NCBI RefSeq assembly: GCF_001294575.1
Contig: NZ_CP012676.1
Coordinates: 3,486,001 to 3,550,000, forward strand
Direction: 5' to 3'
Length of the DNA: 64,000 nt
DNA from: Pseudomonas versuta
GTDB taxonomy: Bacteria > Pseudomonadota > Gammaproteobacteria > Pseudomonadales > Pseudomonadaceae
Shown here: positions 4,273-58,472 of the stretch, in pieces
Layout: every line of letters starts with the position of its first letter
Position numbering within the stretch: position 1 is the stretch's first letter
The notes under the pieces: model-generated
The model's input: the letters and a program-made list of their open reading frames with translations, nothing else
Database searches by the model: none
What the model was told of the DNA's origin: nothing
Program-made: the position numbers and the translations under genes

Positions 4273-4383
4273 ATCGCCGGCAAGCCGACTGCCGCAGTTT
4301 TTGTGTGAGTCGGCTTGCCGGCGATTCAATTCAGGCAAACCGATTCCCACTGCTGCTTTTGTGGGAGCTGGCTTGCCGGCGAT
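4273..4383. repeat. Cluster of three REP half-sites (GCCGGCAAGCC type)
   Basis: Half-sites lie at 4273-4290, 4308-4325 (inverted relative to the first, perfect over 18 bases) and 4361-4383 (same orientation as the second, beginning GTGGGAGCTGG). The first two form a hairpin with a 17-base loop. The cluster fills the space between the glutaredoxin gene and the convergent GST gene and may help end both transcripts. Confidence 0.85.
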
Positions 4384-28848: not shown

Positions 28849-28883
28849 ACCGCTTCGATCGAATTAACCAGGAACAAGACCTT

Positions 28884-30053
28884 ATGAACACTCAAGTAAA
28901 CGCCAACGTTGTCCACGAATCTGAAGCCCAGCGCCAGCATGCGCGGGTCAAAATCCCGGCCAAGCTGCGCTTTTTCGGCGCCGACCGTACGCCGATGGAG
29001 GTCAAGCTGATTGACCTCTCGGCAGGCGGCCTGAGCTTCAACGCTGCCAACCAGCCCTTCAAGGTCGGCGATGTAATCAAAGGGCGCTTACAGTTTGTAA
29101 TCGACAACCTGGGCCTGACGATGGACGTCGACCTGCTGGTACGCAACGCCGACCGCCAGACCGGCCGCGTCGGCTGCCAGTTCCAGAACCTCGACCTGCA
29201 AGACATTGCCACCCTGCGCCATCTCATCACCTCGCACCTGAGCGGCGACATTGTGACCATGGGCGAAGTGCTTGCCACCTTGCAGCGCGACAACTTCACC
29301 AAGGCGCGCAAAGTCAAGGACGGCGGCAGCGGCATGAGCCCTTTCGGGCGCTTTAAAGCCGTCACCTTCAGCGCCGGGATTTTTGTCGTCGGCCTGCTGG
29401 CCTTCGGTTTTGTCGCCAAGTCGGTCTACGGCCTGTACTTCGTGACCCACGCCCAGTCGGCACTGGTCAGCGTGCAGGGGCTGAACATCACCATGCCCCG
29501 CGACGGCACCGTACAAAGCCTGATCAAGGATGACCAGCTGGCGGCCAACGGCGCGCCACTGGCCACCTTCAGCACCAGCATGCTCGATGTACTCAAGGGC
29601 CACCTGGACGAGAACCAGCTGCAACCCGAGAACATCGAAACCCTGTTCGGCAAGCAAATGACCGGCACCCTGACCTCGCCATGTGACTGCGTAGTTGCCG
29701 AGCAACTGGTTGCCAACGGCCAGTACGCCAGCAAGGGCGACGTGATTTTCAAACTGGTACCGCGCAACAGTGAAGCCGACGTGGCTGCACGTTTCAGCTA
29801 CCGCCAGTTTGGCAACGTACTGCCCGGCACCCGCGTCAACTTCCAGGTAGCCGGTGAAGACGCCGTTCGCAGCGGCAAGATCATCAGCAGCACCAGCCTG
29901 GACAGCGACAACCTGTCCTCGGACATCCGCGTGCAAATCAAGCCCGACGCCCCGCTCGACAGCGCCCTCACCGGTCGCCCGGTTGAAGTCAGCAGCGATC
30001 GTGGGCCCTCGTTGAACTGGCTGATCGACAAAGCCATGGCTGCGGGTCTTTAA
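28884..30053 (+). CDS. alg44: Alg44, c-di-GMP-binding co-polymerase
   Basis: Membrane protein of 389 residues, the same length as in P. aeruginosa. The N-terminal cytoplasmic PilZ domain binds c-di-GMP: the RxxxR pair is Arg17 and Arg21 (RQHARVKI), and DLSAGG starts at Asp44. One membrane helix follows (about 155-175, FSAGIFVVGLLAFGFVA), then a periplasmic adaptor-like region with lipoyl/HlyD character (VAEQLVANGQYASKGDVIFK). It activates Alg8 and probably bridges to the AlgK/AlgE export complex. The ATG at 28884 has AGGAA upstream; the in-frame extension upstream overlaps alg8. The stop is three bases before the algK ATG. Confidence 0.96.
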   Translation: MNTQVNANVVHESEAQRQHARVKIPAKLRFFGADRTPMEVKLIDLSAGGLSFNAANQPFKVGDVIKGRLQFVIDNLGLTMDVDLLVRNADRQTGRVGCQFQNLDLQDIATLRHLITSHLSGDIVTMGEVLATLQRDNFTKARKVKDGGSGMSPFGRFKAVTFSAGIFVVGLLAFGFVAKSVYGLYFVTHAQSALVSVQGLNITMPRDGTVQSLIKDDQLAANGAPLATFSTSMLDVLKGHLDENQLQPENIETLFGKQMTGTLTSPCDCVVAEQLVANGQYASKGDVIFKLVPRNSEADVAARFSYRQFGNVLPGTRVNFQVAGEDAVRSGKIISSTSLDSDNLSSDIRVQIKPDAPLDSALTGRPVEVSSDRGPSLNWLIDKAMAAGL

Positions 30054-30055
30054 CC

Positions 30056-31543
30056 ATGACAAACCTTACCCCCAATCAGCGGTGGGAGCTGGCTTGCCAG
30101 CGATTGCATCCCCCCGGTGTTGCAGGCCAACCCCATGGACCGTATCGCTGGCAAGCCAGCTCCCACAAGATTACCGCGCTATGTCTGCTGGCCATCGCGC
30201 TGGCCGGCTGCTCCGGCCTGCCCGATCAACGTCTGGCCAATGAAGCGCTCAAGCGTGGCGATATCGCCACCGCGCAACAGAACTATCAAGTGCTCGCCGA
30301 CCTGGGCTACACCGAGGCCCAGGTTGGCCTGGCCGATATCTGGATGCAAAGCCGCGACACCGAGCAACTGAACAAAGCCGAAGCCACCTACCGGGCAGCG
30401 GCGCAAACCTCGCCCCGGGCCAAGGCGCGTCTGGGCCGTTTACTGGCAGCCAAGCCCGGCGCCACCGACGCTGAACTGCACGAAGCGCAAACCTTGCTCA
30501 AGCAAGCCTTTGCCAGCGGCGACGCCAGCAGCCTCACACCTTTGGCCATGCTGTATTTGCAGCACCCGCAGAGCTTCCCCGAGGTCAACGCACAGCAGCA
30601 AATCAACCAGTGGCTCGCGGCTGGCTATCCCCAGGCGGGCCTGGCGCAAATTGCCCTGTACCGCATTCAAGGCACCTACGATCAGCATCTGGATCAAGTC
30701 CAGTCCATCTGCAAACAGGCGCTGGTCAGCAATGACAGCTGCTATGTCGAGCTGGCCACGGTTTATCAGAAACAAGGCAACACCGAACAGCAGGCGCAGT
30801 TGCTCAAGCAACTTCAAAACGCTTACCGCGAGGGCAGCGCATCGGCCCAACGGGTCGACGGCGTTGCCCGGGTGCTGGCCGATCCGAGCCTTGGCACTCC
30901 CGACCCGGATACGGCCAAATCGTTGCTTGAGAACATCGCACCGATTTACCCGGCGGCCTGGGTCAGCCTCGCGCAACTGCTCTACGACTTCCCGGAGCAA
31001 GGCGATGTCGCACAATTACAGGCCTACCTGGACAACGGCCGCGCGGCAGATCAGCCACGAGCCGAGCTGCTGCTGGGCAAGCTGTACTACGACGGTAAAT
31101 GGCTGACCCCGGACGCGAAACAGGCCGAGGCGCATTTCCTGCAGGCAGTGGATAAAGAAGTGGCCGCCGATTACTACCTGGGGCAGATCTACCGCCGTGG
31201 TTACCTGGGGCAGGTCTACCCGCAAAAAGCCCTCGATCATTTGCTCAAGGCTGCCCGTAACGGCCAGAACAGCGCCGACTTCGCCATCGCCCAGCTTTTC
31301 TCCCAAGGCAAGGGGACCCAACCCAACCGGCTCAACGCCTACGTGTTCAGCCAGCTGGCCAAAGCCCAGGACACCCCGCAAGGCAATGAACTGGCCGCGC
31401 AACTCGATGAGCAACTGCCCGTAGAGCAGCGCGCGCAGGCTCAACGCCTGCTGCAAAAAGAACAAGCGGTGCGTGCCACCTTGAGCCAGAACGCCCTGGC
31501 CGTGCAGACGCTGGAACAAGACAACGGCGAGGAAACCCCATGA
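30056..31543 (+). CDS. algK: AlgK, outer-membrane TPR lipoprotein, with REPIN-encoded N-terminus
   Basis: TPR/Sel1-repeat scaffold lipoprotein that helps place the AlgE porin; 495 residues as read. The mature part is standard (Cys52 then [20 protein letters not shown]) with repeats throughout, such as [14 protein letters not shown] and [20 protein letters not shown]. The start ATG lies two bases after the alg44 stop, as expected. However, codons 9-37 are made by a complete REPIN (30082-30166), so the signal peptide hydrophobic core ([13 protein letters not shown], 39-51, lipobox LAGC) is preceded by about 38 residues instead of a handful. The frame stays open. An in-frame TTG at 30104 is the only alternative start and has no good site. 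Export may be affected. Confidence 0.93.
30082..30166. repeat. REPIN inside the algK coding sequence
   Basis: Perfect facing 23-base arms of the GTGGGAGCTGG type (30082-30104 and 30144-30166) around a 39-base loop. It is the only complete REPIN in the window that lies inside a gene near its start, and it is read through in frame. Confidence 0.95.
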
Positions 31544-58400: not shown

Positions 58401-58472
58401 GTGGGAGCTGGCTTGCCAGCGATTGCTTCAGCCAAACCGGGGCGGTTGAATCGCTGGCAAGCCAGCTCCCAC
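58401..58472. repeat. REPIN, GTGGGAGCTGG type
   Basis: Facing arms GTGGGAGCTGGCTTGCCAGC and its complement ending CTCCCAC, between the FecR gene stop and the receptor gene. Confidence 0.92.

Follow-up and report, generated by a model that had tools for sequence, protein, structure and literature searches.

A REPIN in the AlgK signal-peptide region of Pseudomonas versuta, probably translated, at a site that appears to have been occupied many times across the genus

How can a repeated palindromic element lie within the first codons of a conserved gene, and is it translated there? REPINs have been described as extragenic; the three commonest 16-mers of SBW25 occur 1,067 times, and only 14 of these copies overlap genes, according to those parts of Bertels and Rainey (2011; PMC3116915) that deal with their location. 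The window analysed here, a stretch of 64,000 nucleotides from the P. versuta genome (G000; one contig of 5,149,788 bases), raises the question at algK, where a complete REPIN stands between the start codon and the hydrophobic core of a lipoprotein signal.

The algK open reading frame occupies positions 30056 to 31543 of the window, on the plus strand, like the other features set out in this paragraph, and follows alg44 (28881 to 30053; start uncertain), whose TAA stop codon is separated by CC from the algK ATG (30056 to 30058). It begins with MTNLTPNQ, crosses the REPIN without a stop, and continues into a hydrophobic core and lipobox. The codons for TNLTPNQ and part of an R (30059 to 30081) lead into the 5' arm, GTGGGAGCTGGCTTGCCAGCGAT (30082 to 30104), which is read as (R)WELACQR; a 39-nt spacer (30105 to 30143), in which relatives show no visible amino acid constraint, separates it from the 3' arm (30144 to 30166), read as (Y)RWQASSH. 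The arms are 23 nt each and 100% complementary. The core of 13 residues, which was aligned to that of relatives, lies at 30170 to 30208, and the lipobox Cys, residue 52 and the first residue of mature AlgK, is encoded at 30209 to 30211; mature AlgK with its stop codon extends from 30209 to 31543. The description given by the first-pass annotation, of perfect REPIN arms in frame between MTNLTPNQ and the core, a 38-residue n-region, and a lipobox at Cys52, was therefore confirmed from the translated reading frame.

The product was identified as AlgK by NCBIfam (NF038194; 771 bits against a cut-off of 700), and its match to solved chains of AlgK starts at residue 53 for 3e4b and at residue 52 for 7ula. 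A hydrophobic core followed by the lipobox Cys is what a signal peptidase II substrate should carry; the n-region is positively charged, as expected, but long rather than short. The surrounding alginate operon is complete by ORF order (algD, alg8, alg44, algK, algE, algG, algX, algL, algI, algJ, algF, and algA, from approximately 25.9 to 42.4 kb of the window). NCBIfam named AlgG and the alginate lyase (algL) outright, and nucleotidyl-transferase and mannose-isomerase domains were found in the algA ORF; subfamily or below-cut-off matches were obtained for algD, algI, and alg44 (in the last case weak adaptor-type matches), and there were no NCBIfam matches for alg8, algE, algX, algJ, and algF. 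The remaining operon names, including alg44, are those that we presume from gene order.

The algK element has the structural features of a REPIN: two inverted REPs around a spacer, membership of a high-copy family, and a Y1 transposase gene flanked by REPs of the cognate kind. In the 5.15-Mb genome there are 191 matches to the algK arm (with up to two mismatches), against 0 for a reversed-pattern control. Three ORFs matched the Y1-transposase model (Y1_Tnp) above the cut-off (L331 to L333, at G000:C1:4746674, 5008597, and 1411317); this model is broader than the RAYT family, and hence we refer to these ORFs as RAYT-like. GTGG REPs, one of them of the algK arm type, flank L333 on both sides, L332 has a GTAG REP pair on one flank, and no REPs were detected beside the third by the search pattern. 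Based on the perfect arms, the genomic matches, and the transposases, we classify the algK element from its sequence as a resident REPIN of this genome. The usual extragenic position does not apply, since the element lies inside the algK reading frame; however, that is a trait of location and not of structure, and the element still counts as a REPIN. Within the alginate operon, the search pattern found REPs in algK only; outside the operon, the window holds more REPs of the same type at 4361, 46573, and 58401 to 58472.

To place the P. versuta element in its genus, AlgK was searched in 298 Pseudomonas genomes, 293 of which had a match, and the search was repeated on 80 less similar genomes. 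We took 220 algK 5' ends from the top of the similarity lists, leaving the least similar AlgKs aside, and scored the 209 in which both the alg44 stop and the lipobox were found by pattern (1 was dropped for want of a lipobox and 10 for want of an alg44 stop). A lipobox-type pattern was present in 219 of the 220 leaders, the 209 scored having it by construction. Long leaders, defined as those of at least 115 nt, made up 146 of the 209, and short leaders made up the other 63. REP words of the GTGG/GTAG-type GGAGC form were found in 141 of the 146 long leaders; among the five without them, L041 is a GTAG-type REPIN and some seem degenerate. One of the 63 short leaders (L168) also holds a REP-like word. 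Named relatives, including P. fluorescens, P. brassicacearum, P. corrugata, and P. lundensis, were fetched as well, and four leaders were inspected outside these counts.

Close relatives of P. versuta differ at the algK site: G106 has no element, G195 has a GTGG element like that of P. versuta, and P. weihenstephanensis has a GTAG element in frame. The element is not an oddity of one genome. An assembly artefact was rejected as well, given that algK leader elements occur in many independent genomes. Two further observations concern the surveyed sequences themselves. The record L253 (JAKJHY010000111.1), titled Mycobacterium sp. MBM, has the same algK leader as P. weihenstephanensis and is probably mislabelled or contaminated, and the AlgK matches at G165:C2:1412892-1414232 and G223:C4:212908-214254 have one internal stop each (TAA and TGA, respectively).

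The n-region has a median length of 44 residues in inserted leaders compared with 10 in uninserted ones, and so long a region, 38 residues in P. versuta, could be taken to mean that the insertion impairs AlgK export and hence alginate secretion in this strain; the first-pass annotation had raised impaired export as one of three possibilities. The evidence does not support it. Mature AlgK is under purifying selection (dN/dS of 0.127 against G195 and 0.097 against G106), inserts are spread over the genus, the core and lipobox are intact, and the operon is complete by order. We therefore rejected impairment of AlgK, which we regard as very improbable. The net charge of the n-region was above zero in 144 of the 146 inserted leaders.

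Comparative data on the reading frame favour read-through, that is, translation of the REPIN as part of AlgK. Counted from 15 nt after the alg44 stop, the algK frame of the 141 REP-bearing leaders contained no stop in 6010 codons, whereas the other two frames contained 120 in 5910 and 252 in 5907 (the stop in L184 falls earlier than the counted stretch and ahead of that gene's own start). All 141 leaders were fully open in the algK frame, compared with 43 and 8 in the other frames. The same pattern was seen when one leader was taken per 85%-identity cluster (76 clusters among the 146 leaders): the algK frame had no stops and was open in 76/76 representatives, while the others had 71 and 122 stops and were open in 23/76 and 7/76. 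In addition, the distance from start to Cys was divisible by 3 in 122 of the 122 inserted leaders with a sequence-anchored start, over 19 different lengths; an anchor meant a start motif that was found from the sequence without regard to frame, and the 24 of 146 inserted leaders lacking it were left out.

How much an open frame says depends on the class of insert. As a control, 49 of the 56 REPINs of a single genome, G108, were read in both orientations, the algK element itself and six more being set aside. The frame used by the LWE class of inserts was open in 17 of 98 readings (14 of 98 with a matching length), whereas the frames of the VGAG and CGSR classes were open by chance in 57/98 and 60/98, so that for these two classes openness alone tells little. 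By this control, LWE, the commonest class, uses the least permissive REPIN frame.

An improbable alternative is an annotation effect, with the REPIN lying in the 5' leader and AlgK starting inside or after it. Chance overlaps of this kind do exist, since P. versuta REPs lie in the upstream extensions of the guaB, iolE, and DUF4823 lipoprotein genes, and the relevant sections of Di Nocera et al. (2013; PMC3733652) make this proposal for most N-terminal REPs of P. putida. Many relatives also have an ATG just past the 3' arm, and in 79 of the 146 inserted leaders some start codon past the element leaves at least 13 residues before Cys. However, an annotation effect predicts conservation neither of frame nor of openness, and both were observed. 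In only 4 of the 146 leaders is a downstream start that leaves this many residues preceded by an SD-like motif, and 67 of the 146 have no such start; the upstream start is preceded by an SD-like motif in 141 of the 146, although by a looser pattern than that applied downstream. In P. versuta itself, the last alternative start is the in-frame TTG at 30104 to 30106, the sole ATG, GTG, or TTG codon between the 5' arm and Cys, with no other in-frame codon of these kinds from there to Cys.

The start codon of the REPIN-free sister bears on the same point. In G106 the ATG occupies the corresponding position, in the arrangement TAA-CC-ATG shared with P. versuta, and the upstream start is therefore likely to be older than the REPIN. 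A relative without the insertion but with a different start inside the region would have counted against the first-pass account; G106 instead keeps the upstream ATG, and the internal start at the TTG that the first-pass annotation had entertained is disfavoured in P. versuta. Read-through with a long n-region is the part of that annotation's account that the frame data favour, and impaired AlgK is the part that found no support. The P. versuta start has no clear Shine-Dalgarno sequence and may lean on coupling to alg44.

Elsewhere in the P. versuta genome, 30 REP heads at 22 places yielded no second clear case like that of algK. A scan of eight ORFs that enclose REPs found none (0/8) with a REP inside a recognised domain; three match families (guaB, iolE, and DUF4823), the match starting after the REP in each, and the other five gave no family match. 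Enclosure of a REP by an ORF is uninformative by itself, given that long chance ORFs take in many REPs. The DUF4823 lipoprotein gene (L232) forms a contrast to algK: a REP lies just 5' of it, in a chance extension of the ORF, and the gene has its own ATG after the REP. A protein search with AlgK residues 4 to 45 returned seven proteins, all of them AlgK with the same leader, and no other REPIN-decorated gene.

A further question is whether the element entered algK once or repeatedly. The 209 leaders fall into translated classes as follows: LWE, 99; VGAG, 14; LWE with a nested VGAG, 7; CGSR, 7; GTAG type, 1; other, 18 (including the P. versuta element, which reads RWE); and none, 63. Among the inserted leaders, the + REP head occurs in each of the three reading frames. 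A single ancient insertion that was inherited vertically without recurrence could account for the LWE class, most members of which share a single large section of the tree. The reading frames, orientations, and REP types of the inserts differ, however, and the insert-free G106 is the sister of P. versuta plus G195 (support values of 94 and 99). A short tree, with many weak forks, was built from the final 330 nt of alg44; on it, presence and absence require at least 27 changes, 15 of which are forced by well-supported branches, and the seven classes require at least 46 label changes, a number slightly inflated by the counting of the P. versuta RWE element as "other." With, moreover, more than 15 of 39 spacer columns differing in 10 of 47 sister pairs, a single insertion was rejected, and we give it hardly any credence. 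Rather, such inserts are found throughout much of the tree and seem to have originated on many occasions.

The number of changes could be too high if species have exchanged algK 5' ends. Near-identical short AlgK signals are scattered on the alg44 tree, in one set comprising L109, L119, L125, L128, L201, L204, and L208 and another comprising L132, L202, L205, L213, and L217, and this distribution suggests that such exchange has occurred. In a further seven leaders (L076, L098, L099, L107, L113, L115, and L219), a second REP is apparently nested in the remnants of an older element and is still in frame. Six genomes have chimeric arms, pairing arms of the same two REP types.

The arms and the spacer have fared differently. 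A set of 100 sequences (the LWE class plus P. versuta) gave 47 sister pairs, with a mean alg44 divergence of 4.9%. Within these pairs, differences amounted to 31% in the spacer and 34% in the stretch just 3' of the element, compared with 8.5% and 11.5% in the arms. Spacer substitutions were synonymous in 25 of 87 cases, where 28% is expected (47 of the 100 sequences fitting the arm pattern), and stops apart, no peptide constraint is therefore visible. The 10 sister pairs with highly divergent spacers suggest wholesale replacement of the element or allele exchange. The P. versuta spacer was compared with others to see if its element and the LWE class go back to one origin; mean identities were 0.58 to LWE spacers and 0.59 to 0.61 to five genomic REPINs, compared with 0.57 for shuffled sequence, and neither source stood out. 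P. versuta and G195 differ at 3 positions of the 153-nt leader, at 24 of 600 positions in alg44, and at approximately 9% of mature algK; three leader differences are too few for special conservation to be claimed.

All 24 stem pairs are present in 57 of the 100 sequences and at least 22 in 87. Of the three REP types counted, the one most frequent in the genome was also the arm type in 39 of 50 cases, compared with a permuted mean of 17 and maximum of 30 (10,000 permutations); kinship was left in this statistic, and type A, that of P. versuta, fits in 8 of 15. The sample comprised 53 genomes with both arms of one type, three of which, of the GCGGGCTTGCCCGC type, were unscored, that type being uncounted. 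This pattern of arms and spacer fits a renewal of the element from the resident REP population.

The paired changes in the arms, together with the strong folds, would be consistent with direct selection for the hairpin as well. In such a case the hairpin would be kept for a function, early RNA structure slowing translation or protecting the mRNA and so setting the level of AlgK relative to its neighbours; this is possible, although doubtful, and is compatible with the tolerance explanation given below. The predicted folding energy of the P. versuta element is -57.9 kcal/mol, and z is below -3, relative to mononucleotide shuffles, for 135 of the 146 long leaders. Among the 47 sister pairs, stem positions changed on both sides and still paired number 53, where coincidence would give 15 (maximum of 25 in 1000), and the arms are much better kept than the spacer. 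Against a function, the 63 short leaders are without such an insert, and the hairpin is thus optional; a change on one side of the stem only, by which a pair arose or disappeared, is seen at 66 positions; arms chimeric for two REP types occur; and the agreement of arm type with the commonest REP type is what homogenisation alone would give.

The placement of the inserts can be described from both ends. In 136 leaders, at least 21 nt separate the earliest in-frame start codon from the first + REP head, the distance being 38 to 45 nt in 113 of these, and the distance from the end of the last - REP head to Cys is at least 38 nt; in P. versuta, the two distances are 26 nt, counted from the A of the ATG, and 42 nt, respectively. 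An initiating ribosome covers a footprint of its own around the start codon and, taken with this footprint, the distances place the inserts between the initiating ribosome and the hydrophobic core. The first-pass annotation had set the hairpin on the algK translation start, where it could tune the AlgK/AlgE level. The stem begins beyond the start codon, and the region from -30 to +15 alone folds at only -4.8 kcal/mol, although in a longer fold (-30 to +130) part of the stretch 5' of the ATG pairs with sequence 3' of the element.

The explanation that we favour, and consider probable, is that the n-region of the signal peptide, being removed on maturation, tolerates REPINs that have been filtered for an open frame. 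It can be envisaged that a resident REPIN inserted in frame into the algK n-region, just past the start codon, and would be translated there; the long form would still be exported, and cleavage by signal peptidase II would remove the n-region as the lipoprotein is released. With the n-region discarded, an insertion there would cost little if the frame stays open. Tolerance would require that the frame be kept and be free of stops, that the insert lie beyond the initiating ribosome, and that the hydrophobic core and lipobox remain intact. Over the genus, REP elements have been gained, lost, and swapped at the algK site many times, and the spacer peptide drifts. The likeness and pairing of the arms would be upheld by renewal from the REP population of the genome, through gene conversion as we infer, or by coevolution with that population, and perhaps also by some usefulness of the hairpin. 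A more speculative version, which we think rather unlikely, is that the alg44-algK junction is a standing landing pad at which resident REPINs are repeatedly installed, the hairpin acting as a speed bump for translation or as a clamp on the mRNA and so adjusting AlgK to the level of the neighbouring products; a selfish hairpin would then be kept for host dosage, its peptide being discarded with the signal.

Several known systems resemble the algK element in part. The extended signal-peptide regions of autotransporters also place an unusually long n-region ahead of the core; they belong to another protein class and their peptide is conserved, unlike the algK spacer peptide. The element shares with REPINs, as treated in the pertinent parts of PMC3116915, the inverted REP pair and spacer, the GTGG head, the high copy number, and a resident RAYT-like transposase, but in contrast to the extragenic REPINs described there it is found, in many species, within the coding frame of a gene that is conserved. 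Intragenic REPs are known. Di Nocera et al. (2013), in the portions of PMC3733652 devoted to them, report GTAG/CGTC REPs in frame within ORFs, more than half of them dimers or grouped repeats coding for 20 to 30 residues, and the algK REPs are likewise in frame inside an ORF. The same portions treat most N-terminal REPs of P. putida, C. koseri, and S. maltophilia as probably noncoding; the algK case differs from these in that frame conservation argues for coding and in that it concerns a signal peptide and one recurrent site. Rickettsia palindromic elements, as outlined in the corresponding section of a review (PMC10969869), are palindromes inserted in frame in unrelated genes. Like them, the algK element is an in-frame, stop-free palindrome in a protein-coding gene; unlike them, in that they decorate many genes, it represents insertions that recur at one gene, in a signal region that is removed. 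A literature search, mostly covering papers outside subscription, found no report of a REP or REPIN in algK in titles or the opening lines of abstracts, and a recurrent signal-peptide site at algK, which these searches did not return, seems new.

The usual view places REPINs outside genes and takes REPs at N-termini for probable errors of annotation; the frame data for algK argue for real translation that recurs genus-wide. Discarded signal peptides may be safe spots for small mobile elements inside genes, and the lineages with and without the element provide a natural series in which it can be asked whether REPINs are tolerated or useful.
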